Of a DNA stretch of 64,000 nt, positions 10,039 through 35,929 are shown piece after piece. The notes below the pieces were generated by a model, which worked only from the letters and a program-made list of their open reading frames with translations, was not told the origin of the DNA and made no database searches. The position numbers and the translations under genes were made by a program. This DNA comes from Desulfovibrionaceae bacterium (GTDB taxonomy: Bacteria; Desulfobacterota; Desulfovibrionia; Desulfovibrionales; Desulfovibrionaceae), in the NCBI GenBank assembly GCA_015709205.1, contig JACCQO010000008.1, positions 90,906-154,905 of the forward strand, written 5' to 3'. How positions within the stretch are numbered: the first letter of the stretch is position 1; each line of letters starts with the position of its first letter.

Positions 10039-10072
10039 AAAAAAAGCACCGCCCGCCGAATGGCGGGCGGTG
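10039..10072 (-). terminator. Rho-independent terminator of the left TRAP/dehydratase operon
   Basis: Perfect 11-bp stem CACCGCCCGCC / GGCGGGCGGTG with a GAAT loop (10047-10072). On the minus strand it is followed by a T after G and then seven T in total (A-run 10039-10045 on the plus strand). It closes the minus-strand operon that ends with dctM; the plus-strand efflux operon converges on it. Confidence 0.85.
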
Positions 10073-10160
10073 GTGAGACGCCGTTCCCGTACGGGCGAAC
10101 GGCTACGGGGAGCATTGTTCTCACGGTCCGGGGCGAAGCCGTCCCCCGCCCCGGGACCGG

Positions 10161-11995: not shown

Positions 11996-12059
11996 GATCC
12001 CTTCCTGGGGCCGGGCCGGGACTTATCCCGGCCCGGCCACGTACAACAGATTGCCGGGT

Positions 12060-18383: not shown

Positions 18384-20489
18384 ATGGGCATCAGGGGCAA
18401 ACTCATAGCGGCAATCGTCATTCCCGTTATCGTCGGGGTCGCCATCGTCTCTCTGGCCGTTTCGCTGCAGATGAGGGAGACCGTGAATGAACTGAGCCTC
18501 GAATCGGCCAACCAGCAACTCGTGTTGGTGCAGAATTACGTGAACAAGATACTCGATGCGGCCAAAAACACGTCCGTCATGGTCGCCAACCTGGATGAAG
18601 CCAAGAACGCCGTGGGGAAATGGACGAAGTATTTCGAGTTGTCGGAGGCGACCCTGCCGGGGGCAGCCGCCGTCGACCCGTCCGAGATCACGCTCAACCG
18701 GCTGGCCAACGAATTCATGAAGGCCAATCCGGACTTCGCCTACGTCTACATGGGCTTTGAGGATGGGGGCTACACCCAGGACGGCAAGGAGATGATCAAC
18801 AACGATTACGACCCGCGAAAGCGTCCCTGGTACCAGCAGTGCATGGCCTCGTCCGCGGATTCGACCCTCCTCTCCGCGTACATCACCACCATGGGCGTGC
18901 CCAATATCGGATACACCACCAAGATCCGCAATGCCCAGGGCAAGGCGATAGGGGTCTCGGCCGTCGACATCAGCCTCGGCGGCCTGACCAAGATCATCGA
19001 GAGCATCCGCGTCGGCAAGACCGGATATGTCCTGCTCATCCAGAAAGATGGGAAGATCCTTTCCGACCCCCGCAACAAGGAAAACAACTTCAAGACGCTC
19101 GGCGAGCTTGGCGGCTCGGCCTACGGCCGCATTGCCAAAACCGGCGACGGCACCATGGACGACCTGGTGATCAACGGCGTCAGCTACGTCGCCGACGTGC
19201 TTGTCTCCAAGGAAACCGGGTGGAAGCTGGTCGCCCTGATCGACAAGAGTGAAATCTCCGAGGCCTCGAACAAGGCCCTGACCAGGGTGCTGCTCATCGG
19301 CGGCATCGCCATCCTCCTTTTCGGCGCCCTTGGGGGGGCGTACGTCACCATCGGAATCTACAAGCCCATCGGAACGCTCGTCGGCTTGACGCAGAAGATC
19401 GCGGCGGGAGATTTCAAGGCCCTGCCGGACAAGGTGACCTTCAAGTCCGAGCTGCTGACCCTTTTCGAGAATATGAAGATCATGGTGCAGGAACTGGTCC
19501 GCAACATCACCGCGGCCCAGGAGCACACCCGCATGGCCGAATTGGAGTCCGAGAAGGCCAGAAAGGCCACGGCCGAGGCCGAGGAGGCCAGGATGCAGGC
19601 CATGTCCGCCAAGCAGGAAGGGTTGTTGCAGGCCGCCGAGCGGGTGGAGACCGTCCTGGAACGCGTGGTCGACGCGGCGCAGGAGATGTCCGTCCAGTCC
19701 GACGAGTTCCTGAACGACGCCAGCAGGCAAAGCGAGCGTATCGCCTCCACGGCCACCGCAATGGAGGAGATGAACATGACCGTCCTCGAGATCGCCAGAA
19801 ACGCAAGCGACGCCGCAACCGCCGGCAAGCGGTCCCAGGAAAACGCCCGCAACGGGGCTCAGGTTGTCGAACAGTCGAGACTCGCCTTGGAGCAGACCGT
19901 GCAGGAGGTGGGCAACCTCAAGGCGCGCATGGGCGAACTGGACAACCAGGCCCAGAGCATCGGGGCCATCATCGGCGTGATCAACGACATCGCCGACCAG
20001 ACCAATCTTCTGGCGCTGAACGCCGCCATCGAGGCGGCCCGGGCCGGGGAGGCCGGGCGAGGCTTCGCCGTGGTGGCCGACGAGGTGCGCAAGCTCGCCG
20101 AGAAGACCATGAACGCGACCAAGGAAGTCTCTGCCTCCATCGGCGCCATTCAGAAGACGGCCGGGAACAACATCGTCACCATGGAATCCTTGTTCCATAA
20201 GATGGACGAGGCCGAAAAGAATTCCACGCAGTCCGGAGTGATGTTGCGGGAAATCGTGACGGGAGCGGAATCGAGCGCGTTGCAGATCCAGAGCATCGCC
20301 ACCGCTGCCGAAGAGCAGTCCGCGACCTCCGAGGAAATCAACCACTCCATCGAGGAGATCAACGGCATCACCATGGAAACCGCCAACAGGGCCCAGGAAT
20401 TCGCCTCGTCACTGCAGGCTCTTTCCCAGCAGGTGGCCGATCTCAAGGACATCGTCGAGGATCTCAAGACCGAAGGGGGGAGACGGTAG
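18384..20489 (+). CDS. Methyl-accepting chemotaxis protein with dCache_1 sensor
   Basis: Chemoreceptor of 701 residues: membrane helix (10-30), periplasmic double-Cache domain (about 35-300), second helix (about 305-330), HAMP, coiled coil, and the cytoplasmic signalling hairpin with its conserved tip ([27 protein letters not shown]). The sensor has YDPRKRPWY, followed 60 residues later by AVDISL; the Y/R/W/Y...D pattern resembles the ligand-carboxylate/amine pocket of amino-acid-binding dCache_1 domains. ATG 18384 follows AAGGA; an upstream TTG is ignored. It stands alone between two carboxylate catabolic operons, so its attractant may be their substrate, which is inference only. Confidence 0.94.
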
Positions 20490-21833: not shown

Positions 21834-23717
21834 GTGATCCGCATCGTCGTCATGAGCGTGCCCATGCTCTCCTCCCTGATCCGCAACCTGCAGTACACGC
21901 CCCCGCCCGACGTCTCCATCCGCCTGGTGGAGGCCTTTCTGGACGACGCCGTGAACCAGGCCCGGCGCATCGAGGAGGCCGGCGAGGTGGACGTCTTCGT
22001 CTCCGCGGGCAGCAACGCCCGGCTCCTAAGCGAGGTCGTGACCAAGCCCCTGGTGGAGGTCAGCGTCACGGGTTTCGACCTGCTGCACGCCTTCACCGCG
22101 GCCAAGAAATTCTCCGACACCGTGGCCGTGTTCACCTACCCGGACCAGATCGAGCACCTTTCCGGAACCCTGGACGTCCTGTCCCTGAGCGTGCGCACCG
22201 TGGAATACGACTTCGAGGACCTGACGCACATGGACCAAGCCCTGGACGCGTTGCAGGACCAGGGCATCCACACGATCATCGGCTCCAGCCTCATGGTCCA
22301 GATGGCCAAGCGCCGCGGCATGACGCCCGTGTTCATCTATTCCGGCGACAGCATGAAACGCGCCCTGGACCAGGCCATCCAGCTGGCCAAGTCCAACCAG
22401 CAGGAGGCCGACCGCTCCAAGCGGTTCGAGACCATCCTCGACTTCACCTACGGCGGGATCATCGGCACCGACGCCGAGGGCTGCATCACGGCCTTCAACC
22501 CCCCGGCCGAGCGCATCACCGGCATCGAGCGCGAAAAGGCCCTGGGCCGGTTCATCGGCGGCATCTTTCCGGGCCTCAGGCTCTCGCGGGTCGTGCACCT
22601 GCAGCAGCCCGAGCTCAACCAGATCGTCTCCGCGGGCAACAAGCAGATCCTGGCCAACTACATCCCGATCATCTCCGAGGGCGTGTTCACCGGCGCGGTG
22701 GTCACCTTCCAGGATTTCGGGGCCATCCAGGCGGCCGAGGAAAAGATCCGCAGCAAGATCTACAGCAAAGGCTTCCTGGTGCGCACCAGCCTGGAGAACA
22801 TCTACGGCCGCAGCCCGGCCCTGGAGCGCGCCAAGGAAAGCGCCCGGCTCTACGCCTCCAGCGGGGCGACCATCCTCATCCTCGGCGAGTCGGGCACGGG
22901 CAAGGAGCTCTTCGCCCGGGGCATCCACCGCGCCAGCGAGCGCAGCGACCAGCCCTTCGTGGCCATCAACTGCGGGGCCTTTCCCGAGCAGCTCCTGGAG
23001 AGCGAGCTCTTCGGCTACGACGAGGGCGCGTTCACCGGGGCGCGGCGCGGCGGCAAGAAGGGGCTCATCGAGATGGCCCACCACGGCACCCTGTTCCTGG
23101 ACGAGATCGCCGAAATGCCCACGGCCCTGCAGACGCGCATGCTCCGCGTGCTGGAGGAGCGCGAGGTCATGCACGTGGGCGGCGACCGGATCATCAACGT
23201 GGACATCCGCGTCATCGCGGCCACGAACAAGGACCTGGCCGCCCTGGTGCGCGCCGGGCAGTTCCGCGAGGACCTCTACTACCGCCTCAACGTCCTCAAC
23301 CTGCGCATCCCGCCCCTGCGCGAGCGGCCCGAGGACATCCCCCTGCTCGCGGCCCTGTTCCTGGCCGAGCTGCTGCCGGGCCTGCAGGCCGCGGCCATCC
23401 GCCGCCTGGCCGCCCACCCCTGCCTGCTGCGCTATTCCTGGCCCGGCAACATCCGCGAGTTCAAGAACTTCATGGAGCGCTTCGCCGTGCTCTCGCCCGC
23501 CTTTCCCGACGGCGAGGCCCTGCTGGCCTCGCTCTTCGACACCGCCGGGGAGGACGAATGCGCGGCCTCCGAGGTCATCGTGCGCGCCCTGCGCGAGGCC
23601 GGGGGCAATCGCGCCGAGGCCGCGCGCAAGCTGGGCATCAGCCGCACCACCCTGTGGCGCAAGATCAAGGGCCTGGGACACCTCGCCCCGCCCGCCGCGG
23701 ACACGCGCAACGGCTGA
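21834..23717 (+). CDS. PrpR-like sigma-54 dependent activator
   Basis: Enhancer-binding activator of 627 residues. Domains in order: PrpR_N-type sensory domain (about 1-175), PAS domain (about 195-310, FETILDFTYGGIIGTDAEGCITAFN), AAA+ domain (about 325-560) with Walker A GESGTGKE near 350, the sigma-54 contact loop GAFTGA near 397 and Walker B GTLFLDEIAEMP, then a Fis-type HTH (GGNRAEAARKLGISRTTLWRKIKGL). GTG 21834 is preceded by GGGAGG at seven bases; ATG 21852 is an alternative. The PrpR_N domain in PrpR binds methylcitrate and in relatives other propionate- or carboxylate-pathway intermediates. A near-perfect sigma-54 promoter lies 100 bases downstream, in front of the lyase/TRAP/LeuCD operon that it should activate. 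Confidence 0.93.
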   Translation: MIRIVVMSVPMLSSLIRNLQYTPPPDVSIRLVEAFLDDAVNQARRIEEAGEVDVFVSAGSNARLLSEVVTKPLVEVSVTGFDLLHAFTAAKKFSDTVAVFTYPDQIEHLSGTLDVLSLSVRTVEYDFEDLTHMDQALDALQDQGIHTIIGSSLMVQMAKRRGMTPVFIYSGDSMKRALDQAIQLAKSNQQEADRSKRFETILDFTYGGIIGTDAEGCITAFNPPAERITGIEREKALGRFIGGIFPGLRLSRVVHLQQPELNQIVSAGNKQILANYIPIISEGVFTGAVVTFQDFGAIQAAEEKIRSKIYSKGFLVRTSLENIYGRSPALERAKESARLYASSGATILILGESGTGKELFARGIHRASERSDQPFVAINCGAFPEQLLESELFGYDEGAFTGARRGGKKGLIEMAHHGTLFLDEIAEMPTALQTRMLRVLEEREVMHVGGDRIINVDIRVIAATNKDLAALVRAGQFREDLYYRLNVLNLRIPPLRERPEDIPLLAALFLAELLPGLQAAAIRRLAAHPCLLRYSWPGNIREFKNFMERFAVLSPAFPDGEALLASLFDTAGEDECAASEVIVRALREAGGNRAEAARKLGISRTTLWRKIKGLGHLAPPAADTRNG

Positions 23718-23749
23718 CACGCGAATGTAACACTTTTTGGAACACACCC

Positions 23750-23757
23750 GTTGCAAC
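23750..23757. promoter_or_regulatory. Possible upstream activator site
   Basis: GTTGCAAC is a small perfect palindrome 60-67 bases upstream of the sigma-54 -24 element, at a distance usual for enhancer-binding proteins. A related GTTGCC occurs at about 23774. It is the best activator-site candidate in this short gap, but weak. Confidence 0.25.
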
Positions 23758-23816
23758 AGGCCGTTCCGGGTCCGTTGCCGACAAAACAACTCCAATTATT
23801 TCATAGCCCTGCCATA

Positions 23817-23832
23817 TGGCACGGGACTTGCT
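23817..23832 (+). promoter_or_regulatory. Sigma-54 promoter of the right catabolic operon
   Basis: TGGCACGGGACTTGCT matches the sigma-54 consensus TGGCACG-N4-TTGCW at every fixed position, with GG (23818-23819) and GC (23830-23831) ten bases apart. Transcription should start near 23843, 55 bases before the lyase start codon. The adjacent upstream gene is a sigma-54 activator. Confidence 0.88.
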
Positions 23833-23897
23833 CAAACTCCTTCCAAACACTTCGAAAAGGTGCATGCACTCGTCACCACCACGAAGGAAGGAGCGCA

Positions 23898-24779
23898 ATG
23901 TCGTACGAGAAGAAAACAACCCGTCTCCGGAACCTGGTCACCAGCAAGGAGTTCCTGCTGCTGCCGGGATGCTTCAACCCCCTTTCCGCACGCCTGGTCG
24001 AACAGGCCGGTTTCGCGGGCGCCTACATCACGGGCGCGGGCGTGGCCAGCAACCTGCTCGGCTACCCCGACATCGGCCTGGCCAGCCACGGCGAGGTCCT
24101 TTCCGCGGCCCGCTGCATCGCCCAGGTCACGGACATCCCCATGCTCTGCGACACGGACACCGGCTTCGGGAACGCCGTGAACGTGATCCGCACGGTGCGG
24201 GAGTTCGAGGCCGCGGGCATCGCGGGCATCCAGCTCGAGGACCAGCTGCATCCCAAGAAGTGCGGCCACACCGAGGGCAAGCTGCTCGTCTCCAAGGAGG
24301 AGATGGTCCAGAAGGTCAAGGCCGCCGTGGACACCAGGAAGGACCAGGACTTCGTGCTCGTGATCCGCACCGACGCCATCGCGGTCAACGGCCTGGACGA
24401 CGCCCTGGACCGCGCCGCCGCCTACGTGGAGGCCGGGGCCGACGTGATCTTCGTGGAGGCCCCGCAGAACGTCGAGCAGATGCGCCGCATCACCTCGACC
24501 ATCAAGGCCCCGCTCCTGGCGAACATGGTCGAGGGCGGCGGCAAGACGCCGATCCTGCCCGCCAAGGAGCTGGCCGAGCTGGGCTACAGCCTGGCCATCT
24601 ACCCCACGGCCCTGTGGATGTCCTCCATCAAGGCCATGCAGGAGGTGCTCGGCGTGCTCAAGGCCACCGGCACCTCCCTGGACTACGCCGAGCACATGGT
24701 CTCCTTTCAGGAGATGTTCGAGATCGTCGGGCGCTCCGCCTACGCGGAGCTGGAAAAGAAGTACGCGACCAAGTGCTGA
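23898..24779 (+). CDS. Isocitrate lyase/PEP mutase family C-C lyase (methylisocitrate or dimethylmalate lyase type)
   Basis: TIM-barrel lyase of 293 residues. Family landmarks: LLPGCFNPLSARLVEQAGF, LGYPDIGLASHGE, metal-site LCDTDTGFGN, GIQLEDQLHPKKCGH with the catalytic Cys in KKCGH, and EAPQNVEQM. Members cleave 2-methylisocitrate (PrpB), 2,3-dimethylmalate or oxaloacetate, usually giving pyruvate or a related keto acid. The LGYPDIGL and KKCGH(x)xGKLLV forms fit dimethylmalate lyase or oxaloacetate decarboxylase-like members at least as well as PrpB. AAGGAG precedes ATG 23898. It is the first gene of the sigma-54 operon; no citrate synthase-like prpC is present, so a plain methylcitrate cycle is unlikely. 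Confidence 0.88.
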   Translation: MSYEKKTTRLRNLVTSKEFLLLPGCFNPLSARLVEQAGFAGAYITGAGVASNLLGYPDIGLASHGEVLSAARCIAQVTDIPMLCDTDTGFGNAVNVIRTVREFEAAGIAGIQLEDQLHPKKCGHTEGKLLVSKEEMVQKVKAAVDTRKDQDFVLVIRTDAIAVNGLDDALDRAAAYVEAGADVIFVEAPQNVEQMRRITSTIKAPLLANMVEGGGKTPILPAKELAELGYSLAIYPTALWMSSIKAMQEVLGVLKATGTSLDYAEHMVSFQEMFEIVGRSAYAELEKKYATKC

Positions 24780-24811
24780 ACCCGTAACCGCAACAGAGAG
24801 CAGGAGACATC

Positions 24812-25831
24812 ATGAAGGCTTCATTCACCAAGACGATGCTGGCGTTGGGGACCTGCCTATTCCTCGTCTGCGGCGTGCTGCCGCAGGCCGCTCCGGCCGC
24901 AGACGTGGTCAAGATCACCATTCCCTGCCACATTCCCTCCAGCTACAAGGACATGTTCCCGCCCGTGAAGCAGTTCGTGGACCGCATCAACGAACTGGGC
25001 AAGGGCAAGCTGGAAGCCCAGCTCTACCATTCCGGGAGCCTGTACAAGGTCAAGGACATCGTCCCGGCCCTGATGAACGGTTCCTGTGAGATCGTCTTCC
25101 ACACCAGTTCCCACACCACGGGCAGTTGGCCCGAACTCGGCGGCCTGACCCTGCCCTTCCTCTACAAAAGCAACGACGACATCCAGGCCCGCTGGCACCA
25201 GGACGGCGCCCTGTTCAAGCTCGTCAAGGACGAGCTCGTCTCCAAGTACGACGTCCGCCTCCTGGGCGCGGGCATCACGGGGTCGCTGTGGCTGTGGACC
25301 ATCGACGGCAAGCCCGTGCGCACCCCCGCCGACCTCAAGGGCCTGAAGATCCGCACCACCGGCACGGTGGACGCCGACTTCATCAAGGCCTGCGGCGGCA
25401 CGCCCATCTTCCTGTCCTCCTCCGAAACCTACGAGGCCCTGCAGCGCGGCACCATCGACGGCCTGACCACCTTCCCCGGCGGCCTGCTCGGCCGCAACCT
25501 GGACGAGGTCCTGCGCTACGGCACCGAGATCAAGTGCGGCTGGGCCTACCAGATCTACACCGTCGAAAGCCTCTTCAAGAGCTGGCCCAAGGACGTCCAG
25601 GACGCCATCACCACGGCGGCCAAGGAATACGACGCGGCCATCTTCAAGAGCATGATGGACTACGAGAAGTCCACGGTCTTCCCGCGCATCGCCAAGACCG
25701 TGCAGATCGTCACGCCGGACGCCGCCGGACAGGCCGAGTTCGAGAAGATCGCCAAGGCGGTCTACCCGGTCTGGTCGGCGACCGTGAGCCCCGCCTTTGC
25801 CGAGAAGTTCATCGCTCTGAGCCAGCAGTAA
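24812..25831 (+). CDS. dctP: TRAP transporter periplasmic binding protein DctP
   Basis: Solute receptor of 339 residues with a signal peptide ending near AAPAA (residue 29). The carboxylate-binding Arg is in LKGLKIRTTG near residue 181, and the conserved ETYEALQRGTIDGL helix follows. ATG 24812 has AGGAG upstream, 32 bases after the lyase stop. It differs clearly from the binding protein of the left cluster (no Cys-rich loops), so the two importers probably take different acids. A strong stem-loop follows the gene and may raise the level of this subunit over the permease. Confidence 0.94.
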   Translation: MKASFTKTMLALGTCLFLVCGVLPQAAPAADVVKITIPCHIPSSYKDMFPPVKQFVDRINELGKGKLEAQLYHSGSLYKVKDIVPALMNGSCEIVFHTSSHTTGSWPELGGLTLPFLYKSNDDIQARWHQDGALFKLVKDELVSKYDVRLLGAGITGSLWLWTIDGKPVRTPADLKGLKIRTTGTVDADFIKACGGTPIFLSSSETYEALQRGTIDGLTTFPGGLLGRNLDEVLRYGTEIKCGWAYQIYTVESLFKSWPKDVQDAITTAAKEYDAAIFKSMMDYEKSTVFPRIAKTVQIVTPDAAGQAEFEKIAKAVYPVWSATVSPAFAEKFIALSQQ

Positions 25832-25873
25832 CTTCGCTCGCAGCGGCCGCAGCTTCAGCCTGCGGTCCACACC

Positions 25874-25909
25874 GGGGCGGGGAGTCTCCTCCCCGTGGCT
25901 CCCCGCCCC
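25874..25909 (+). other. Stable stem-loop between dctP and dctQ
   Basis: Perfect 11-bp stem GGGGCGGGGAG / CTCCCCGCCCC with a 14-base loop and no T-run, in the 175-bp gap between the binding-protein and permease genes. Such intercistronic hairpins commonly protect the upstream receptor mRNA, which is needed in excess. No gene lies in this gap. Confidence 0.6.
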
Positions 25910-26006
25910 CTCCTTCCGACGCACGCCGCCGAGGGCTCCCCGCCATGCGGCGGCCGGTACGACACATCAACCCGCCACACCGAGGCGATTTTCGGAGGGC
26001 TCCCCT

Positions 26007-26489
26007 ATGTTGCAACGTCTGTTCACGGGCCTGCCACGGCAACTCGCCAATCTGGCGGCCATCGGCACGGGGCTCATGCTCCTGGTGGTCTTCTCCAACG
26101 TGGTCGCGCGCTTCGTCTTCAACAAGCCCTTCTACTGGGCCGAGGAGGTCACGGCCATCGCCATCGTCTTCGTGACCATGCTGCCCGCGGCCCTGCTCTG
26201 GAACGAAGACCGCCACATCAAGCTGGACATCTCCATCGGCCGTCCCGGCTCCCGTTTCGAGCAGTTCAAGCACCTCGTGGTCTGCGCGGCCTCGGTCATC
26301 TTCAACGGCGTGCTCTCCTGGCAGGCCTGGAAGGCCACGTCCATGATCTACAAGCGGGGGATGCACGAACCCTCCCTGCTGGGATCGCCCCTCTGGATCG
26401 TCTATTCCGCGCTGTTCGTCGGCTCGGCCGTGCTGCTGCTGGTCGGCCTGCGCTCCCTGTACCTCTCGACCCGTGACATCTGGAGATAG
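26007..26489 (+). CDS. dctQ: TRAP transporter small permease DctQ
   Basis: Four-helix subunit of 160 residues. Typical DctQ stretches are LLVVFSNVVARFVFNKPFYWAEEV and a charged WNEDRHIKLDI loop before the third helix. GGAGGG precedes ATG 26007. The stop is four bases before the dctM start. It acts with DctM and DctP of the same operon as a secondary importer of the organic acid degraded by the downstream enzymes. Confidence 0.92.
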   Translation: MLQRLFTGLPRQLANLAAIGTGLMLLVVFSNVVARFVFNKPFYWAEEVTAIAIVFVTMLPAALLWNEDRHIKLDISIGRPGSRFEQFKHLVVCAASVIFNGVLSWQAWKATSMIYKRGMHEPSLLGSPLWIVYSALFVGSAVLLLVGLRSLYLSTRDIWR

Positions 26490-26493
26490 TCTC

Positions 26494-27798
26494 ATGGACG
26501 CAGGCATCGCAACACTCACCGTTCTGGCAATGTTCTTCGCCCTGGTCTTCCTGGGCGCCCCCATCTTCATCGGCCTGGGCCTGTCCAGCGTGACGGGCAT
26601 GTACCTGATCCGCGGCGCCCAGGGGCTCTACCAGCTTCCGGCCGCCATCGTCGGCCAGCTGGAAAGCTTTCTGCTCGTGGCCCTGCCCCTGTACCTGCTC
26701 ATGGGCGAGGCCCTGAGCAAGAGCGGCGCGGGCTCGGACGTCTACAAGGCCCTGGAGCGCTGGCTGAACCGCTTCCCCGGCGGCCTGGCCATCGCCTCCA
26801 TCTACGCCTGCGCCCTGTTCGGGGCCATGTGCGGCGTGAGCGTGGCGGGCGTGGCGGCCATCGGCGTCATCGCCGTGCCCGAGATGCTCAAGCGCGGCTA
26901 CGACAAGTCCATGGCCGCGGGCGCGGTCACCGCGGCGGGCGCGCTGGCCGTGCTCATCCCGCCGTCCATCTCCTTCATCATCTACGGGGCCATCGCGGGC
27001 GTGTCCGTGGGCAAGCTGTTCATCGGCGGCATCGTGCCCGGCCTGGTCCTGGCCACGGCCATGGCCGCCTACGTCCTGGTGCGCGCCAAGGCCCAGCCGC
27101 ACCTCGTGGGCACCAGCGAGCGCACCGCCTACACCTGGAAGGACATGCTGGCTCCCCTGCCCAAGCTCTGGCCCGTGTTCCTGCTGATCTTCGCCGTGCT
27201 CGGCACCATCTACACCGGCGTGGCCACGCCCACCGAGGCCGGGGCCATCGGCGCCATGGGCTCCCTGGTGGTCACGGCCATCTACAAGCAGCTGAACCTG
27301 CGCAACCTGTGGAGCATCCTCACGGGCACCACGCGCGTCACGGCCACGATCATGATCATCATGGCCGCGGCCTTCGCCTTCAGCCAGTTCCTGAACCTGG
27401 TGCGCATTCCCGAGACCCTGAGCCAGTGGGTCGTCACCCTGCAGATGCCGCCCCTGGCCATCGTCCTGCTGATCATGTGCTTCTTCCTGCTGCTCGGCTG
27501 CTTCATCGACGGCGTCTCCCTGATCATCGTGACCACGCCCGTGGTCCTGCCGACCATCCTGGCCCTGGGCTTCGATCCCCTGTGGTACGGCGTGCTCCTG
27601 GTACTCAACCTGGAAATGGCCGTGATCACGCCGCCCGTGGGCCTGAACCTCTACTCCATGCAGAGCATCATGAAGGACACCCTCTCGATGAAGGACATCA
27701 TCAAGGGCTCCTTCCCCTACCTGCTCGTGGAGTTCGGGGTGCTGCTGCTCTTCGTGCTCGTGCCCGAACTGGCCCTGTGGCTGCCCGGGGGCATGTGA
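26494..27798 (+). CDS. dctM: TRAP transporter large permease DctM
   Basis: Twelve-helix subunit of 434 residues with SFLLVALPLYLLMGEALSKSG, GAMCGVSVAGVAAIGVI, IPPSISFIIYGAIAGVS, ATPTEAGAIGAMGSL and ITPPVGLNLYSMQ signatures. ATG 26494 follows GGAGAT; an in-frame upstream start at 26473 lies inside dctQ. The stop overlaps the next ATG (TGATG), coupling translation to the first LeuD-like subunit, which ties the importer directly to the dehydratases. Confidence 0.95.
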   Translation: MDAGIATLTVLAMFFALVFLGAPIFIGLGLSSVTGMYLIRGAQGLYQLPAAIVGQLESFLLVALPLYLLMGEALSKSGAGSDVYKALERWLNRFPGGLAIASIYACALFGAMCGVSVAGVAAIGVIAVPEMLKRGYDKSMAAGAVTAAGALAVLIPPSISFIIYGAIAGVSVGKLFIGGIVPGLVLATAMAAYVLVRAKAQPHLVGTSERTAYTWKDMLAPLPKLWPVFLLIFAVLGTIYTGVATPTEAGAIGAMGSLVVTAIYKQLNLRNLWSILTGTTRVTATIMIIMAAAFAFSQFLNLVRIPETLSQWVVTLQMPPLAIVLLIMCFFLLLGCFIDGVSLIIVTTPVVLPTILALGFDPLWYGVLLVLNLEMAVITPPVGLNLYSMQSIMKDTLSMKDIIKGSFPYLLVEFGVLLLFVLVPELALWLPGGM

Positions 27799-28346
27799 TG
27801 AGCGCCCTCGACGGCACCGGCGGCAAGGCCTTCAAGGTCGGCGACGACGTGAACACCGACTACATCATCTCGGCCCGGTACCTGGACGTCTACGAGCCCG
27901 AGGAGCTCCGGGCCCACCTCTTCGAGGGGCTGGGCCCGGAGCGCGCCGCCCGGGCCGCGTCCTGCACCGTGCTCGTGGCCGGGCGCAACCTGGGCTGCGG
28001 CTCGGCCCGGGAGCAGGCCCCCAACGCCCTCAAGGGCGCAGGCTACAAGGCGGTCATCGCGGCCTCGGCCGCGCGGATCTTCTTCCGCAACGCCATCAAC
28101 GTTGGGTTGCCCGTGATCTGTGCGCCGGACGCGGCCGAAGCCGTGAACGACGGCGAGACCGTGGCCGTGGACCTGGCCGCCGGAACCATCCGCACGGCCT
28201 CGGGCGCGACCTTCGCCTTCGCCCCCTTCCCGGCCCCGGTGCGCCGCATCCTGGAGGCGGGCGGCATGTATCCCCTGCTGGCCGAACTGGCCGCGACCGC
28301 GGGCCGGGACGCCACGGGCACCAGGGAGGGCGCGTCATGGGCATGA
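27798..28346 (+). CDS. LeuD-like aconitase-superfamily small subunit 1 (variant)
   Basis: Swivel subunit of 182 residues, partner of the overlapping large subunit 1. It retains DDVNTDYIISARYL and the substrate-binding loop, here LGCGSAREQAP rather than the usual FGCGSSREHAP: one Ser and the His are replaced while the Arg is kept. The specificity loop reads YLDVYEPEEL. Isopropylmalate, homoaconitate, citraconate and dimethylmaleate hydratases share this fold. The start overlaps the dctM stop, and its last ten bases overlap the next gene. The altered loop suggests an unusual substrate. The C-terminal 30 residues are Ala/Gly/Thr-rich and not conserved. Confidence 0.88.
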   Translation: MSALDGTGGKAFKVGDDVNTDYIISARYLDVYEPEELRAHLFEGLGPERAARAASCTVLVAGRNLGCGSAREQAPNALKGAGYKAVIAASAARIFFRNAINVGLPVICAPDAAEAVNDGETVAVDLAAGTIRTASGATFAFAPFPAPVRRILEAGGMYPLLAELAATAGRDATGTREGASWA

Positions 28347-29593
28347 CCTTCGCCGAAAAGATCTTCGCCAAAAAGACCGGCCGCGCCGCGGCGCGCGCCG
28401 GGGAGATCGTCTCCGTGCGGCCCGACGTGGTCATGACCCTGGACGCCGACGCCGAGATCATCATCCGCTTCGAGGAGCTCGGCCTGCCCCGGGTCTGGGA
28501 CCCCGCGCGCATCGTCTGCGCCCTGGACCACTACGGCCCGGCCTCCACGCGCCGCTCGGCGGACCTGCACCGGCGCATGCGCCTGTTCGCCGAGGCCCAG
28601 GGCATCGAGCGCTTCTTCGAGGTCGGCGAGGGACTCACGCACCAGATCATGCTCGAACGGGGCTACGCCCTGCCCGGGATGTTCATCGTGGGCACGGACT
28701 CGCACACCCCGTCCTACGGCTGCGTGGGCGCGCTGAGCTGCGGCGTGGGCGCGTCGGACATGCTCTCCATCTGGGCCACGGGCGAACTGTGGTTCCAGGT
28801 GCCCCGGAGCGCGCGCATCGTGCTCGACGGCGCCCTGCCCCCCGGGGTCTTCGCCAAGGACGTGATCCTCGAGGTCATCCGCTCCTTCACGGCCTCGGGC
28901 TGCACCTACATGAGCGCGGAGTTCACGGGCTCGGCCCTGGCGGACATGCCCATGGCCGAACGGTTCGTGCTCTGCAACCTCTCCACGGAGATGGGCGTCA
29001 AGTCCACCTGGGTGGAGGTGGACGAGACCACGCGCGCCTTTGCGGACCGGCACGGCGGGGCCTACGGGATCGTGGCTCCGGACCCGGACGCGGACTACGC
29101 GGCCCTGAAACGGTTCGACGTGTCCGCGCTCGCGCCCATGCTGGCCTGCCCACACCGCGTGGACAACGTGCACCCGGTGGCCGCCATGGCGGGTGCGCCG
29201 GTGCACCAGGCCTTCCTGGGCACCTGCGCCAGCGGCCGCTTCGAAGACCTGGCCGTGGCCGCGAAAATCCTGGGCGGCAGGCACGCGGCCCCGGGCGTGC
29301 GCCTGCTCATCGCTCCGGCCTCGCGCGCGGTGCTGCGCCGGGCCATGGAGGCGGGGCACGCCCAGGCCCTGATCGATGCCGGGGGCGTGTTCCTGCCCCC
29401 GGGCTGCGGGCCCTGCGCGGGCATCCACGAAGGGTTGCTGGGCCAGGGGGAGCGCTGCGTCTCCACGGCCAACCGCAACTTCCGCGGCCGCATGGGCAAC
29501 CCGGATTCGGAAATCTACCTGGGCAGCGCCGCAACGGTCGCCGCCTCGGCCCTCACGGGCGTCATCACCGACCCGCGCCCCTATCTGGCGTGA
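28337..29593 (+). CDS. LeuC-like aconitase-superfamily large subunit 1
   Basis: Catalytic subunit of 418 residues, the length of prokaryotic two-subunit isopropylmalate/homoaconitate-type hydratases. The three [4Fe-4S] Cys are present: one in LGTCASGR and two in PPGCGPCAG. Other landmarks are VGTDSHTPSYG, LDHYGPASTRRSADLH and the C-terminal STANRNFRGRMGNPDSEIYL. GGAGGG precedes ATG 28337, which overlaps the LeuD-like gene by ten bases. It diverges strongly from large subunit 2 at 29620, so the pair is not a recent duplication. It should hydrate or dehydrate a C4-C7 unsaturated or hydroxy diacid; the exact acid is unknown. Confidence 0.92.
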   Translation: MGMTFAEKIFAKKTGRAAARAGEIVSVRPDVVMTLDADAEIIIRFEELGLPRVWDPARIVCALDHYGPASTRRSADLHRRMRLFAEAQGIERFFEVGEGLTHQIMLERGYALPGMFIVGTDSHTPSYGCVGALSCGVGASDMLSIWATGELWFQVPRSARIVLDGALPPGVFAKDVILEVIRSFTASGCTYMSAEFTGSALADMPMAERFVLCNLSTEMGVKSTWVEVDETTRAFADRHGGAYGIVAPDPDADYAALKRFDVSALAPMLACPHRVDNVHPVAAMAGAPVHQAFLGTCASGRFEDLAVAAKILGGRHAAPGVRLLIAPASRAVLRRAMEAGHAQALIDAGGVFLPPGCGPCAGIHEGLLGQGERCVSTANRNFRGRMGNPDSEIYLGSAATVAASALTGVITDPRPYLA

Positions 29594-29619
29594 GCATTCC
29601 CTCAGGAGAAAACGCCATC

Positions 29620-30879
29620 ATGCCCATGACCATCACCGAAAAGATCCTGGCCGCGCACGCGGGACTCGACCGCGTCGAGCCCGGCCAGATCATCATGGCC
29701 GACGTGGACGTGGCGCTGGGCAACGACATCACCACGCCCATCGCCATCGACGAGTTCGAGCGCAGCGGCGCCGGCCGGCTGCACGACCCGGAGCGGCTCT
29801 TCCTCGTCATGGACCACTTCGTGCCCACCAAGGACATCCAGTCGGCCATGCAGGTCAAGAAGGTCCGGGACTTCGCCCGGAAACACGACCTGCCCCACTA
29901 CTACGAGCCCGGCACGGCGGGCATCGAGCACGTCTTCCTGCCCGAGCAGGGGTTCGTGGGCCCGGGCGACCTGGTCATCGGCGCGGACAGCCACACCGTG
30001 ACCTACGGCGCGCTGGGGGCCTTCTCCTCGGGCGTGGGCAGCACGGACCTGGCCGGGATCATGATCACCGGCCGGATCTGGCTCAAGGTGCCGGAGACCA
30101 TGCGCTTCGTGTTCCACGGCACGCCGCGCCCCTGGGTCGGCGGCAAGGACCTGGTCCTGCGCGCCATCGGCGACGTGGGCGTGGACGGCGCGCGCTACCG
30201 GGCCATGGAATTCGCGGGCGGGGCCGTGGACTCCCTGTCCATGGACGACCGCTTCACCATGGCCAACATGGCCATCGAGGCGGGCGGCAAGTGCGGCGTG
30301 TTCCACGTGGACGAGAAGACCAGGGCATACGTGAACGGACGCTGCAAGCGGCCCTGGCGGGTCTTTGCCAGCGACCCGGACGCCCATTACTGCGCGGTGC
30401 GCGAATACGACTGCGCGGCCATCGAGCCGCAGGTGGCCTTCCCGCACCTGCCGGGCAACACCCGGCCCGTGAGCCTGGCCGGACACGTGCGCATCGACCA
30501 GGCCGTGATCGGCTCCTGCACCAACGGACGCATCGGCGACCTGCGCGCCGCCGCGGCCGTGCTCGAGGGCCGCAGGGTCGCGCCCTACGTGCGCCTGATC
30601 GTCATCCCCGGCAGCCAGCAGGTCTACCTGCAGGCCCTGGCGGAGGGACTCCTGGAGACCTTCGTGCGCGCGGGCGGCGTGGTCAGCCCGCCCACCTGCG
30701 GGCCCTGTCCCGGCGGGTTCATGGGCATCATGGCCGACGGCGAAAAGACCATCTCCACAACCAACCGCAACTTCATCGGCCGCATGGGCCACACGGGCAG
30801 CGAGATCTACCTGGCCAACCCGGCCGTGGCCGCGGCCTCGGCCGTGGCCGGGCGCATCGTCGGCCCGGACGCGCTCTAG
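29620..30879 (+). CDS. LeuC-like aconitase-superfamily large subunit 2
   Basis: Catalytic subunit of 419 residues with all cluster ligands (IGSCTNGR, PPTCGPCPG), MDHFVPTKDIQSA, IGADSHTVTYGALGAFSSGVGSTDLAG and STTNRNFIGRMGHTGSEIYL. These read like the HacA/LeuC2/dimethylmaleate hydratase branch of about 420 residues. AGGAG lies 11 bases before ATG 29620. Gene order in this operon is small1-large1-large2-small2, so this subunit pairs with the following LeuD-like gene. With the first pair and the lyase it could carry out sequential dehydration and rehydration before cleavage. Confidence 0.93.
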   Translation: MPMTITEKILAAHAGLDRVEPGQIIMADVDVALGNDITTPIAIDEFERSGAGRLHDPERLFLVMDHFVPTKDIQSAMQVKKVRDFARKHDLPHYYEPGTAGIEHVFLPEQGFVGPGDLVIGADSHTVTYGALGAFSSGVGSTDLAGIMITGRIWLKVPETMRFVFHGTPRPWVGGKDLVLRAIGDVGVDGARYRAMEFAGGAVDSLSMDDRFTMANMAIEAGGKCGVFHVDEKTRAYVNGRCKRPWRVFASDPDAHYCAVREYDCAAIEPQVAFPHLPGNTRPVSLAGHVRIDQAVIGSCTNGRIGDLRAAAAVLEGRRVAPYVRLIVIPGSQQVYLQALAEGLLETFVRAGGVVSPPTCGPCPGGFMGIMADGEKTISTTNRNFIGRMGHTGSEIYLANPAVAAASAVAGRIVGPDAL

Positions 30880-30888
30880 GAGGACGCC

Positions 30889-31398
30889 ATGACGGGACAA
30901 GTCTGGAAATTCGGCGACAACATCGACACGGACGTGATCATCCCGGCGCGCCGCCTGACGACCAGCGACCCCGCGCAGCTCGCCAGGTACTGCATGGAGG
31001 ACGCCGACGAGGCCTTCGCCGGGCTGGTCAACAGGGGCGACATCCTCCTGGCCGGGGAGAACTTCGGCTGCGGCTCCTCGCGCGAGCACGCGCCCATCGC
31101 CATCCGCGCCGCGGGCATCTCCTGCGTCATCGCCAAGAGCTTCGCGCGCATCTTCTACCGCAACGCCTTCAACATCGGCCTGCCGACCATCGAGTGCGCC
31201 GATGTGGACAAGATCGCCTCCGGCGACCACATCAAGGTGGACTTCGCCAACGGCGAGCTCCTGCACATCGAGACCGGCGCAATCTACAAGGCTTCCCGGA
31301 TTCCGCCCTTCATGCAGGAACTGATCGACGACGGAGGCCTCATCGCGCACATCGCCAAGGGGCTGCGCAAGGAGGCCGGGGGGCCGACCCGACCGTGA
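30889..31398 (+). CDS. LeuD-like aconitase-superfamily small subunit 2
   Basis: Swivel subunit of 169 residues with canonical motifs: DNIDTDVIIPARRL, ENFGCGSSREHAPIAI and the FYRNAFNIGLP segment. The specificity-loop region is RRLTTSDPAQL, different from YLDVYEPEEL in small subunit 1, so the two enzymes should prefer different substrates or different steps. AGGAGG precedes ATG 30889, nine bases after the large subunit. It is the last gene of the operon; a strong terminator follows 80 bases on. Confidence 0.93.
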   Translation: MTGQVWKFGDNIDTDVIIPARRLTTSDPAQLARYCMEDADEAFAGLVNRGDILLAGENFGCGSSREHAPIAIRAAGISCVIAKSFARIFYRNAFNIGLPTIECADVDKIASGDHIKVDFANGELLHIETGAIYKASRIPPFMQELIDDGGLIAHIAKGLRKEAGGPTRP

Positions 31399-31479
31399 CG
31401 GCCGGTTGGGAAGCCGCGGCGCGCGCCGCCTGATGGGAGAGCGCGCCGCAGGGTCGGAACCCCGCATCCGCGCCACGCG

Positions 31480-31511
31480 AAAGGGGCCGGGCGAATGCCC
31501 GGCCCCTTTTT
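31480..31511 (+). terminator. Rho-independent terminator of the right catabolic operon
   Basis: A perfect 13-bp stem AAAGGGGCCGGGC / GCCCGGCCCCTTT with a GAAT loop, ending in five T. It closes the eight-gene sigma-54 operon. Confidence 0.92.
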
Positions 31512-32285
31512 CGTGCCCGGCCCCCCTTCGCACGCGTGGCCCGTTCGCCCGGGCCCGCCCAGGGCCACCCAAACCGCCTTTCCCCGCCCGCCCCGCCGCC
31601 CGACTCGGTATCCACTCCCTCCCGCGGCCACCAGAGCCGCCCCGGCCGTTCCTCTCCCGCTCGCCTATCCCCGTCCGCGCCGCTTCCCCGCCCCCCCTGC
31701 GCGGGGAACCCGCGCCACTCTCCGCTGATCATTGACAATATCCGCCATTCAGGAGTTGACAAAATCTGGAATTACCGCCCTCCCGGATCCATTTTAATTG
31801 CCAATTATGGTAAAAATATCCTCCGCCCGGCTTTGTCACGCCGCCCCACCCCACTCCCGCCGTTGCGACGCAGCTCCCTCGCGCCACCCAGTGGAAATAA
31901 AAAGTTTAATATATCAAATTATTATATATGAACGCCGAGAAACCGACAATAAAAACACCACTTCGCAACAAATTGGCATAAATGATGCTCGAGCCCCGCA
32001 GCGCGTGCGAAGAGCACCCCCGTATCCGCCGCACAACGACAAGGAGTTTTACCTTGAAAAGCACGCTTCGCTCTTCAAAAGACAGCACAAACATCATCTA
32101 GGCACATCTCACTACATTCTCAAGCCATTATGTTATGGGGCTTGTCGCTTCCGCAAAAGAATCTTCTTTTGCATACGCTGTTCTTTTATCTTCTGAAAAT
32201 CCCGCTGCATGCGCCACAGGAATGCGGCGCAAGCGGCAAAGAAGCAATGACCTTTCCATGAACAACTCAAAAGGAGTACGCTGTG
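31512..32285. other. 0.8-kb leader/intergenic region, AT-rich in its right half
   Basis: No gene is supported. The first 200 bases are very GC-rich; from 31730 on the DNA is AT-rich with two TTGACA elements (31735 and about 31758) and long A/T runs near 31900-31930, unlike neighbouring DNA. It carries a sigma-54 type promoter at 31973-31989. If that is used, the amidohydrolase mRNA has a leader of nearly 290 bases. Confidence 0.45.
31973..31989 (+). promoter_or_regulatory. Candidate sigma-54 promoter of the exported amidohydrolase
   Basis: TTGGCATAAATGATGCT has GG (31975-31976) and GC (31987-31988) ten bases apart and resembles TGGCAC-N5-TTGCW with two mismatches. It is on the coding strand, about 285 bases before the start codon. 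Confidence 0.4.
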
Positions 32286-33413
32286 ATGTCGTCGTTCTTT
32301 AGGAAGATGCTGATTGTCTTCGCTATCGCCCTCTTCATGGTTTCGTCGGTCGTCGCCGCCGACGCCACGGAGACCGCCAAGGCCGCCGCCCCCAAGGACG
32401 AGATGAAGGTCGCCCTGGTGAACTTCCAGGCCGTCTGGGGCGACAAGGCGAAAAATCTCGGGATGATGCTGGCGGACATCAAGGAAGCCGCCGCGCGCGG
32501 CGCGAACATGATCCTTTTCCCGGAGATGTGCCTGACGGGATACGCCATGGAAAAGGGCGACGGCATCAAGCGCGCGGACCGCATGCAGGTCAAGCTGGCC
32601 GAGCCGTTCGACGGGCCGAGCGCCCAGGCCGTCGCCAAGCTGGCCAAGGAGAAAGGGGTCTACGTGGTCTACGGCTACCCCGAGCGCATCGGCGGCGATC
32701 CCCTCAACGTCTACAACTCGGCGCTGGCCGTCGGTCCCGAGGGGATCATCGGCTCCTACCAGAAGGTCCACCCCTTCGGCAGCGAGGTCATCTGGTGCAA
32801 GACCGGCACGAAGCCCTTCACCTTCGACACCCCCTGGGGCCCGGTCGGCATCAGCATCTGCTACGACACCTACAACTATCCCGAACTGGGCCGCTACTAC
32901 GCCGCCAGGGGCTGCCGGCTGATCCTCAACCCCACGGCCACCTCCCGGGCCTACTCCGCCGCCTCCGCACTGGTGGACGGCAAGCCCGTGAACGACGGCA
33001 AGCCGATCAACGGCAGCAACGCCCGCTGGGTCAACCGGTTCAAGAGCCGGGTGGAGGCCGTGGTCATCCAGAGCGACGTCTTCGTGGCCAGCGCCAACCT
33101 GGTCGGCGCGGAGACCGCCGCGGACGGCACGTTCATGGGCACCTGCTTCCCGGGCGGCAGCTCCATGGTCGGCCCGATGGACGACAAGGAAGGCACGCCG
33201 AGCTACATCGGCTACTACGGCACCGATCCGGCGCTGGCCACGGACGCCGGCGTGATCTACAGCACCGTGGACCTGACCAAGGCCACGCGCAAGTCCGTCG
33301 AGAACTACATCAAGACGGACCTGCAGGAAGAATACCTGTACATGCCCAAGCTCTACGCCGAATGGTTCGACGAACTGGCCAAGGGCAAATACGGCCACAA
33401 GAAGGCCGACTAG
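32286..33413 (+). CDS. Exported nitrilase-superfamily carbon-nitrogen hydrolase
   Basis: Amidohydrolase of 375 residues. The Glu-Lys-Cys catalytic triad is visible: Glu80 in FPEMCLTGY, Lys160 in SYQKVHPFG and Cys192 in GISICYDTYNYPEL. Unusually for this mostly cytoplasmic family, it starts with a clear signal peptide (FFRKMLIVFAIALFMVSSVVAA, cleavage near residue 25), so it should act in the periplasm on an amide or nitrile. A long insert (about 215-260) precedes the last conserved segment SDVFVASANLVG. AAGGAG (32271-32276) serves either GTG 32283 or ATG 32286. It is monocistronic, with its own terminator, convergent to a dCache chemoreceptor. The substrate is unknown. Confidence 0.9.
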   Translation: MSSFFRKMLIVFAIALFMVSSVVAADATETAKAAAPKDEMKVALVNFQAVWGDKAKNLGMMLADIKEAAARGANMILFPEMCLTGYAMEKGDGIKRADRMQVKLAEPFDGPSAQAVAKLAKEKGVYVVYGYPERIGGDPLNVYNSALAVGPEGIIGSYQKVHPFGSEVIWCKTGTKPFTFDTPWGPVGISICYDTYNYPELGRYYAARGCRLILNPTATSRAYSAASALVDGKPVNDGKPINGSNARWVNRFKSRVEAVVIQSDVFVASANLVGAETAADGTFMGTCFPGGSSMVGPMDDKEGTPSYIGYYGTDPALATDAGVIYSTVDLTKATRKSVENYIKTDLQEEYLYMPKLYAEWFDELAKGKYGHKKAD

Positions 33414-33502: not shown

Positions 33503-35593
33503 TCATTCCTCGCGCATGCGCGTGATGACCCGGCGCAGGTCGTCGGCCATGCGCGCCAGGTCGCTCACCGCCGCGGCGGACTGGTTCATGGACGCCGCGG
33601 TCTCCGAGGCCACCACGTTGATGTTGCCCACGGCGTGGGCGATCTCCTCCGAGGCCGCGGACTGCTCCTCGCTGGCCGTGGCGATGGAGCGCACCTGGTC
33701 CGCCGAGTTGTCCACGGACACGAGGATCTTCTCCAGCGACCGGCCCGCCTCGTCGGCCAGTTCGGTGCTCCTGCCCACGGCCTCGGCCGCCTTCTGCATC
33801 ATCTCGATGTTCTGCCGCGCCCCCTGCTGGATGTTGCCCACCGCGGCCTCGACCTCCTTGGTGGCCGTGACGGTCTTTTCCGCCAGCTTGCGGACCTCGT
33901 CGGCGACCACGGCGAAGCCGCGCCCGGCCTCGCCCGCGCGCGCCGCCTCAATGGCCGCGTTGAGCGCCAGCAGGTTGGTCTGGTCCGCGATGTCGTTGAT
34001 CACCGTGATGATCTGGCCGATGGCCTCGGCCTGCGTGCCCAGGTCGCCCAGGGCCTGCTCCATGGCCTCGGTCTGCTGGTTGACCTGGGTGATGGCCCGC
34101 ACGGTCTGGTGGACCACGTCCGCGCCGCCCTCGGCCATCCGCTTGGCCTCCTCGGCGTGGCGCGCGGACTGCTCGGCGTTCTTGGCCACCTCCAGGACCG
34201 TGGCGTTCATCTCCTCGATGGCCGTGGCCGTCTCGGTGATCCGCTCGCGCTGCAGGTCCGTGCCCCGGCTGGCCTCCTCCACCTGGGACGAAAGCTCGTC
34301 CGTGGCCCCGGCCAACCGGTGCACGATGTCCCCGAGCGAATCCGCCACCTCGAGCATGCCCTCGCGCCGCGCGGACTCCGCCTGCGCACGCGCCTCCTCG
34401 GCCTCGGCCAGGGCGCGCTCCGCGGTGCGGGCCTTGTCCTCGGCGTCGTCGCGGGCCAGGTTGCAGGTGCCGACCATCCGCCCCAGGGCCTCGGAGGTCC
34501 GGTTCAGGGCCAGGAAGATGGTGCCCATCTCGTCGGAACGGCGCTCCCGGATGCGCCGCTCGTAGTCGCCCTCGCCGAGTGCGCCCAGAAAGGCGACGAC
34601 CTTGCGGACCGGCGCGACCACGATGCGCTGGGAGAGGACCCAGACCGCCGCGGCCACGAGCAGCAGACACGCCGCGAAGATCAGCCCGATCTCCAGCACC
34701 GAGTCCTCCACCGGGGCCATGATCTCCCGCTTGTCGATGAGCTCGATCAGCTTCCAGCCCAGCCGGGGGGAGGTGAAGACCGCGCCCAGGCTCTCCACGC
34801 CGTCCACGGTCACCTCGCGCACGCCGTCCGGGCCGGAGATGAGCCGGAAGAGGTGCTGCGACGTAAGGTCCTTGGCCTTCTTGAAGTTGGAGCCCTCGTG
34901 CCGCGGATCGGCCAGGACCACGCCGTCGTCCTGGACCAGGACCATGTACCCGGCCTTGCCGATCTTGATGCTCTTGACCAGGTCCGTAAGCTTCTTGAGC
35001 GAGATGTCCACGCCGACCACGCCCAGCGTCTGCCCGCCGCTCACGATGGGCCGGGTCACGCCGGCCACGGCCTCGCCGGTGGTGGACATGTAGGCCTTGG
35101 AGAGCGAGGGCCTGTCGCCGGCCTGCAGGGCCTCCACGTACCACGGCCGCTTGCGCGGGTCATAGCCCGCCGGCACGTAGCCGTCCTCCGCCGAGGTCAC
35201 GAAGGTGCCCGTCTGCGTTCCGAGATACACCTCCACGTAATTGGGGTGGGCGTCCTGAAGGAGCTTGAAGAACCGCACCGCCCGGTGCGCGACCGCATCG
35301 CTCTCCGGCACCACGGGGTGGACCTTTTCCTTGGTGGCCACATAGCTCAGCGTGATCTCCCCGCAACGGAGCGCCGTCTCGTGCTTGGCCAGCATGTCCG
35401 CGTTCATCATGCTTTCGTCGATGAACATGGTGATGGCCTTGTCCACCTGCGCCAGTTCGCCCTGCGCCGCGTGCTCGAAGGAGGCGAAGGACAGGGAGCG
35501 GATGTTTGCGCCGGTGATGAAGAAAATGAGAAACATGGGCACGGCGATGACGATGAAGATCGCCGCCATCAGTTTTGCCTTGATCGACTTCAT
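33503..35593 (-). CDS. Methyl-accepting chemotaxis protein with dCache_1 sensor
   Basis: Chemoreceptor of 696 residues: membrane helix (10-30), periplasmic double Cache (about 35-290), second helix (about 300-325), HAMP, then the signalling domain with the invariant tip [25 protein letters not shown]. The ligand pocket motif YDPRKRPWY and the later GVDISL are both present, as in the receptor at 18384, so the two may sense related small molecules with an amino or carboxylate group. GGAGGGG precedes ATG 35593. It is divergent from the adenylate cyclase gene, which carries the same type of sensor; an 8-8-8 inverted repeat lies between them. Confidence 0.95.
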
Positions 35594-35728: not shown

Positions 35729-35929
35729 TACAGGCAAGGGCCGCCAGCCGCCGCAACGCCCGGACCGCGCCGCATGGCGGGCACGGCCGGTCCGTCGGAA
35801 CCGAATCGCCAACTCCATGGAGAATAATAACTTCCTGGTCAGAAGTTCGGGATTGGGATAGATTGACCGTCTCGTGTGCACACCGTTGCGCACCCCTCGG
35901 ACACATCTGCGCAGAGGAGGCCGGACGCC

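Follow-up and report, generated by a model that had tools for sequence, protein, structure and literature searches.

The DNA analysed here, hereafter the window, is a 64,000-nucleotide stretch of contig C52 of a 4.25-Mb Desulfovibrionaceae draft genome (G000, 98.4% complete). It contains an operon of eight open reading frames (ORFs), all intact and co-directional (23898-31398), that encode a carbon-carbon lyase of the isocitrate lyase/phosphoenolpyruvate mutase (ICL/PEP-mutase) superfamily, a TRAP importer and two LeuCD pairs, each with a large (LeuC) and a small (LeuD) subunit of the aconitase family. The Pfam matches run in the order PEP_mutase/ICL, DctP, DctQ, DctM, Aconitase_C, Aconitase, Aconitase, Aconitase_C, in agreement with the order lyase, DctP-Q-M, LeuD-LeuC-LeuC-LeuD that a first-pass annotation had read from the same DNA. 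The operon and its control region comprise the following features.

~21834-23717, + strand: PrpR-type sigma-54-dependent activator with PrpR_N, PAS, AAA and Fis HTH domains (Pfam; start 21834 picked by eye)
23707-23713 (GCAACGG), 23748-23754 (CCGTTGC) and 23772-23778 (CCGTTGC), strand unspecified: candidate activator half-sites (repeat search of 201 bases)
23817-23832, + strand: sigma-54 promoter, TGGCACGGGACTTGCT, exact consensus match
23898-24779, + strand: ICL/PEP-mutase superfamily carbon-carbon lyase, KKCGH motif (PF13714, 169 bits)
24812-25831, + strand: DctP, TRAP solute-binding protein, signal peptide by eye (PF03480, 140 bits)
25874-25909, + strand: GC-rich 13-bp hairpin in the DctP-DctQ gap (fold of 25832-25960)
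26007-26489, + strand: DctQ, TRAP small permease (PF04290, 84 bits)
26473-27798, + strand: DctM, TRAP large permease (PF06808, 331 bits)
27798-28346, + strand: LeuD1, small subunit of pair 1, recognition loop RYLDVYEP, motif GSAREQ (PF00694, 52 bits)
28337-29593, + strand: LeuC1, large subunit of pair 1 (PF00330, 287 bits; Fe-S cysteines read from the sequence)
29620-30879, + strand: LeuC2, large subunit of pair 2 (PF00330, 337 bits)
30889-31398, + strand: LeuD2, small subunit of pair 2, recognition loop RRLTTSDP, motif GSSREH (PF00694, 72 bits)
31483-31511, + strand: intrinsic terminator, hairpin 31483-31506 followed by T5

Operon layout and transcription signals

The sequence TGGCAC-N5-TTGCT at 23817-23832 matches the sigma-54 consensus TGGCAC-N5-TTGCW exactly and is the sole match in the window, where 0.07 exact matches are expected; 7 of 100 shuffled sequences contained one. 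The first-pass annotation had called this promoter near-perfect and the terminator at the other end strong, and the latter description is borne out by the folding of 31470-31525 (-38.3 kcal/mol, z -4.7). Successive genes overlap or are separated by at most about 35 nt, except for a 175-nt gap between DctP and DctQ, and by eye a purine-rich Shine-Dalgarno-like run precedes six of the eight starts, those of DctM and LeuD1 being less clear. The folded region around the gap (25832-25960) has a z of -2.6, equalled by 2 of 200 shuffles; its hairpin has no T run and perhaps shields the binding-protein mRNA.

The activator gene lies directly upstream of the operon and is itself preceded by a GntR/FCD gene; the first-pass annotation included neither. 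Its ORF, read from 21546, scores 132.5 bits against PF06506 (cut-off 29.1) and 232 bits against PF00158, and is just under the cut-off of the PrpR model TIGR02329 (478.8 versus 499.2 bits). The GCAACGG/CCGTTGC repeats before the promoter are possibly binding sites for this activator, although repeats this short can arise by chance. DctP, DctQ and DctM are adjacent and so qualify as a TRAP transporter; a single-sequence structure model of DctP had a predicted local distance difference test (pLDDT) value of 36 and was not used to derive a ligand. By all the indirect signs seen, the operon is real, intact, regulated and catabolic.

The lyase and the two LeuCD pairs

The cysteine of KKCGH is a mark of carbon-carbon lyases, and lyases with K(K/R)CGH break 2-hydroxy acids at C2-C3. 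The window lyase has this motif, and together with its PF13714 match it sustains the family assignment made earlier. Its best profile is prpB, but it misses the TIGR02317 cut-off (323.0 versus 354.4 bits), as do the lyases on C7 (277 bits) and at about 58 kb on C52 (289 bits) of the same genome and that of locus L183 (314 bits). Against single references it scores 227.9 bits with 4iqd, 217.6 with 1mum (E. coli PrpB), 215.6 with the petal death protein and 169.6 with 3fa3 (2,3-dimethylmalate lyase). At an aligned motif PrpB has NITEFG, 4iqd NMTEFG, the petal death protein NMIEGG and the window lyase NMVEGG, so that Val and Gly stand for the Thr and Phe of PrpB where the petal death protein has Ile and Gly. 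The longer string NMVEGGGKTP is common to the window lyase and its closest relative (71% identity; genome G315, locus L197), and the L202 lyase has NMVEGGKTP. The F and P of the PrpB methyl pocket are retained in an alignment with PrpB, CPEP and the petal death protein; we presume the roles of these pocket residues to be those in the ICL and PrpB structures. The available part of PMC11982470 gives KRCGH as the canonical PrpB motif, which the window lyase lacks, having KKCGH; this difference is a poor discriminator because the lyases of L202, L203, L104 and L179, not placed as PrpB, carry KRCGH. Near its lineage, lyases like that of the window are uncommon, being found in 8 of 120 genomes (E 1e-45) and 9 of 395 in the phylum set (E 1e-84), its own genome included in both counts. 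The closest one is followed by TctC and TctA genes, with no LeuCD within the 19.5 kb fetched.

In the aconitase superfamily the iron-sulphur (Fe-S) cysteines and the DSH, NRN..GR and GSSRE motifs have roles in catalysis. By eye, both pairs of the window keep three Fe-S cysteines, DSH, NRN..GR and a GSSRE-type small-subunit motif, and LeuC1 and LeuC2 are 39% identical, so the two pairs are complete and distinct, as had been claimed. Recent duplication of one pair was considered and rejected on this identity and on an approximately unbiased (AU) test in which LeuC1 was held with LeuC2, L047 and L203 (p-AU 1.4e-6). In LeuD1, GSAREQ replaces GSSREH, with one Ser changed to Ala; among 90 aligned LeuD rows this change occurs only in LeuD1 and in the LeuDs of L092 and L097, both of them loci with two LeuCD pairs, and 81 rows have GSS.

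An Arg in the small-subunit loop (YLRT, MJ1271) is what we take to be the homoaconitase-type marker of tricarboxylate substrates. In the loop alignment it was found in neither LeuD1 (YLDV) nor LeuD2 (RLTT, with an Arg elsewhere), and the isomerase loop YLVY is likewise matched by neither. This recognition loop governs substrate preference, according to the available part of PMC7308503. Taken together, the pocket motif of the lyase and the LeuD loops lean weakly toward a 2-alkylmalate-type dicarboxylate as the substrate class, with a 2-methylcitrate-type tricarboxylate possible.

The 3-isopropylmalate dehydratase model TIGR02083 (cut-off 610.65) is passed by LeuC2 (647.6) and failed by LeuC1 (376.4). 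The genome has its own leuA-leuC-leuD-leuB set on C67, separate from the operon, and the LeuC of that set scores 626.9; the isopropylmalate dehydratase name is uninformative for LeuC2 because LeuC2 outscores this leuA/leuB-linked LeuC. LeuCD-like genes are readily misnamed as leucine enzymes, and here the profile ranks a likely catabolic paralog above the leuA/leuB-linked protein. After merging of 11 pieces, six aconitase-family large-subunit sites are present in the genome: the C67 leu set, a 639-aa aconitase-like gene on C80, a LeuC on C7, a LeuC at about 63 kb on C52, LeuC1 and LeuC2.

The rows of the trees were the 370-520-aa LeuC ORFs that BLAST detected in the related loci, to which two M. 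jannaschii sequences were added (105 rows in all), and the groups submitted to AU tests were picked after the trees were seen. LeuC1 stood in the 105-row tree beside three very divergent rows (L160-L162), which we took for long-branch pull, and 30 rows that were long or near-duplicate were then removed. The resulting 75-row tree places LeuC1 with L092, L097 and L098 (bootstrap 99; Shimodaira-Hasegawa-like approximate likelihood-ratio test, SH-aLRT, 56), and a clade of LeuC1 with L111, L091 and L094 is not rejected by the AU test (p-AU 0.234). A further tree, of 33 LeuCs, kept 31 of the 105 rows and added L202 and L203; in it LeuC2 joins the LeuC of L203 (100/97) and that of the C7 locus of the same genome, L047 (93/85), both of which lie beside a lyase and a TRAP importer, and placing LeuC2 in one clade with L044 and the biosynthetic LeuCs is rejected (p-AU 0.0037, the group being post hoc). 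LeuC1 groups there (96/90) with Tct-linked L111, lyase-linked L091 and L094, two-LeuCD loci L092 and L097, and L098, far from the biosynthetic group. The split is not clean, since the LeuC of L044, a lyase locus at about 58 kb on C52, falls among the biosynthetic LeuCs, and that of the lyase-TRAP locus L202 lies with Tct/PrpR-linked L049 and L108, apart from LeuC2. Leucine biosynthesis was rejected as the function of the operon on two grounds, the separate leuA-C-D-B set and the position of LeuC2 outside the biosynthetic clade; neither pair looks like a leucine enzyme, and these comparisons support instead the catabolic role proposed at first pass.

Related loci and known systems

Four ICL-family lyases in the genome exceed the Pfam cut-off. 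The C7 locus (L047) reads lyase-DctP-DctQ-DctM-LeuC-LeuD, the order of the window core, and on C45 a lyase is followed by DctPQM, with no LeuCD within the 16 kb fetched. The locus at about 58-66 kb on C52 (L044 1977-10346) contains a lyase, both AcnX subunits, a sodium:solute symporter, LeuC-LeuD and a PrpF-family gene that is under both the PrpF and the 4-oxalomesaconate tautomerase cut-offs. This cluster could be a 3-methylitaconate/dimethylmaleate route, which would leave AcnX unexplained. Directly after the C7 locus (L047 ~9664-12667) there are translated repeats, IIPAGAGNT and DHPRGRGEH, that by eye resemble a CRISPR array.

In other genomes, L202 has lyase-DctP-Q-M-LeuC-LeuD followed by genes for a leuB-like dehydrogenase and an aconitase-like protein; the order in L203, whose LeuC is nearest to LeuC2 (60%), is lyase-LeuC-LeuD-DctM-P-Q; L183 contains PrpR, lyase, LeuC and LeuD together with a DctM-type permease and an NMT1-like binding protein; and L091 joins lyase and LeuCD to a Tct importer (Tct, DctQ, HD and M24 calls first read by eye were run against Pfam). 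A lyase-importer-LeuCD set is thus a recurring module, present on C7 of the same genome and in L183, L202 and L203, and with Tct in L091. L047, L202 and L203 share parts with the window, with the order lyase-P-Q-M-C-D in L047 and L202, but all three are without LeuD1-LeuC1, L202 having its leuB-like and aconitase-like genes instead. Recognition of such modules would aid the naming of misnamed genes and of TRAP or Tct importers.

Among 101 loci, a sample biased in that they were picked by LeuC or lyase similarity and small subunits were sometimes missed, 18 have a lyase, 11 a lyase and a LeuC, and 5 of those 11 also a TRAP or Tct gene; one of the 5 is L044, where that gene is upstream of the lyase and the likely importer is the symporter. 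At least two LeuC-like genes occur in 19 loci. Two LeuC-sized genes lie less than 4 kb apart in seven of the 101 (L092, L097, L112, L138, L159, L163 and L177) and about 5-10 kb apart in six (L104, L117, L121, L122, L126 and L128); in another six (L125, L129, L144, L149, L150 and L165) the second gene is a single-chain aconitase-like ORF, either longer or cut. Two LeuCs together with lyases are found in one locus, L104, whose two LeuCD pairs lie 10 kb apart with an ABC importer. Lyase, TRAP and D-C-C-D occur together in none of the 101 loci and, by inspection, in none of 8 further ones. The first-pass annotation had described the layout as unfamiliar and had asked for the D-C-C-D order in other genomes; the complete arrangement is indeed without a second example among these loci, but the lyase-importer-LeuCD part recurs and closely spaced LeuC pairs occur in 7 of 101. 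The order on Skermanella plasmid pSM-2 is C-C-D-D (the last D by eye). No close ortholog of LeuC1 was found, with no identity above 55%, the best match being 48% in the other genomes of the 120-genome set and 51% in the 395-genome set, with a best segment of 54-55% among 58 loci of the species collection and only matches below 60% in plasmid records; orthologs may be missed in the contig scan because it requires exact 8-residue words.

Six of the two-LeuCD clusters (L092, L097, L112, L138, L159 and L177) are like the window in having two LeuC-sized genes within 4 kb, and L092 and L097 also share the GSAREQ motif of LeuD1, but the stretches fetched for these six contain, unlike the window, neither an ICL-family lyase nor a TRAP/Tct importer. 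L092 (1943-7170) and L097 (711-13622) include creatinase/M24-like and UbiD genes (UbiD by eye in L092), and L097 also an ornithine cyclodeaminase-like gene; from this content they probably encode a degradation pathway of unassigned kind. In the Synergistaceae clusters L138 (8153-15877) and L159 (5267-12984), two LeuCD pairs are accompanied by a leuB-like dehydrogenase, an HD-like gene and citrate-lyase-like CitE/CitF (by Pfam in L159, by eye in L138); LeuC also follows an HD-domain gene in L112 (Pfam) and, by eye, in L127 and L163. The divergent loci L160 (11269-12703), L161 and L162 keep the layout of LeuCD plus lyase with altered active sites, LeuD having GYGHPHYPP for GSSREH in L160 and L161 and the lyase KRCPA for KRCGH in L160 and L162.

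The nicotinate fermentation of Eubacterium barkeri reportedly ends with the hydratase DmdAB and the dimethylmalate lyase Dml, and to our knowledge that system has one LeuCD pair and no TRAP importer. Its end steps (Mii, DmdAB, Dml) are like the window in that a LeuCD-type hydratase feeds an ICL-family lyase; Mii is a PrpF-family protein that makes dimethylmaleate (available part of PMC4720413). The operon differs in its two LeuCD pairs and in having no PrpF/Mii gene, and the C52 locus at 58 kb, with a PrpF-family gene, LeuCD and lyase, is the better match to those last steps. The 2-methylcitrate cycle is like the window in its PrpR-type sigma-54 activator and its succession of dehydratase, hydratase and ICL-family lyase, and unlike it in that the window has LeuCD pairs in place of PrpD/AcnD/AcnB and a lyase under the prpB cut-off. 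No PrpD match was found in the genome, and its only citrate synthase is on another contig, C34; for these reasons we rejected a plain methylcitrate cycle that makes its own substrate by a dedicated synthase. Neither of the two findings that would have spoken against the first-pass reading applies, since leuA/leuB come with their own leuCD and the genome has this one distant citrate synthase and no PrpD match. The core of the operon is a known kind of pathway, a LeuCD-type hydratase feeding an ICL-family lyase, and what is new is the doubled LeuCD. The papers listed by our literature searches included none that we recognised as dealing with such an operon.

A possible pathway and its alternatives

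From the genes, their order, the regulatory signals, the intact catalytic motifs, the distinctness of the pairs and the recurrent core, all of them directly observed, we tentatively favour, at rather less than an even chance, a substrate-induced sigma-54 operon in which a branched hydroxy-diacid, once imported, loses water through one pair, regains it through the other and is then split by the lyase. The PrpR-type activator would sense the acid and fire the -24/-12 promoter, and the TRAP system would import the branched hydroxy-dicarboxylate. One LeuCD pair would dehydrate it to a maleate-type alkene. The other would add water back to yield a 2-alkylmalate-type acid whose hydroxyl sits on the opposite carbon or has the opposite configuration. 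The lyase would cut this product to a keto acid, most likely pyruvate, and a short carboxylate such as propionate. Such a relay would explain why two pairs share one promoter. The older core may be lyase-DctPQM-LeuC2D2, to which LeuD1C1 would have been added later, broadening the hydroxy-acids that feed the lyase. The operon in this way offers a testable proposal for how bacteria might consume branched diacids. More doubtful is the further idea that the two distantly related pairs form a dedicated LeuCD relay, one dehydrating and the other rehydrating with different regio- or stereochemistry. They would then in effect be an isomerase that turns a natural branched hydroxy-acid, itself resistant to cleavage, into one that an ICL-family lyase can cut, a pathway that we did not meet in the literature searches.

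Several points weigh against the favoured pathway. Its substrate class, like the metabolite flow, stereochemistry, products and which pair came first, is something that we infer, and the serial order of the pairs follows from logic; the residue argument draws on few reference sequences and on presumed roles in the ICL/PrpB pocket. The PrpR_N activator, prpB as best lyase profile, and the Tct importers beside LeuC1 relatives and beside the closest lyase (L197, 71%) all point to tricarboxylates, and other LeuCD-lyase loci make do with one pair. The range of acids carried is, however, broad for both Tct and TRAP systems.

The tricarboxylate indications would be accommodated if a 2-methylcitrate-like acid were scavenged, one pair taking the PrpD/AcnD step, the other the AcnB step, and the lyase acting as PrpB to give succinate and pyruvate. 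The 2-methylcitrate cycle needs two hydro-lyase steps, which fits two pairs, and the activator and lyase scores (478.8 of 499.2 and 323.0 of 354.4), the retained F and P of the methyl pocket (by their presumed roles) and the Tct neighbours agree with such a substrate; with one citrate synthase and no PrpD match the acid would need to be imported, as this explanation holds. It is nevertheless unlikely, given a lyase under the prpB cut-off with NMVEGG where PrpB has NITEFG, LeuD loops both without the homoaconitase-type Arg and, as a weak point, KKCGH in place of the KRCGH that PMC11982470, in its available part, calls canonical. Alternatively the pairs could act in parallel, each on its own imported acid or stereoisomer, with both routes meeting at the lyase or at its products. 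Their distance from each other, their differing recognition loops and the one-pair core modules of L047 and L203 fit this arrangement, which we regard as rather improbable because a single importer and a single promoter serve both pairs. It is very improbable that either pair, or both, is a redundant enzyme of leucine biosynthesis that came to lie in the operon by accident: LeuC2 does pass the NCBIfam 3-isopropylmalate dehydratase model (647.6 versus 610.65) and one lyase-locus LeuC, that of L044, does group with biosynthetic LeuCs, but the genome's own leuA-C-D-B set exists, with a LeuC that scores lower on that model (626.9), and LeuC2 lies outside the biosynthetic clade in the post hoc test (p-AU 0.0037).

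The flanks of the operon encode two dCache chemoreceptors and a dCache adenylate/guanylate cyclase (18366-20489, 33506-35593 and 35876-38077, by Pfam), which are possible sensors of the same acids. Just 3' of the operon (32283-33413) is a gene for a carbon-nitrogen hydrolase (Pfam) with an apparent export signal by eye.

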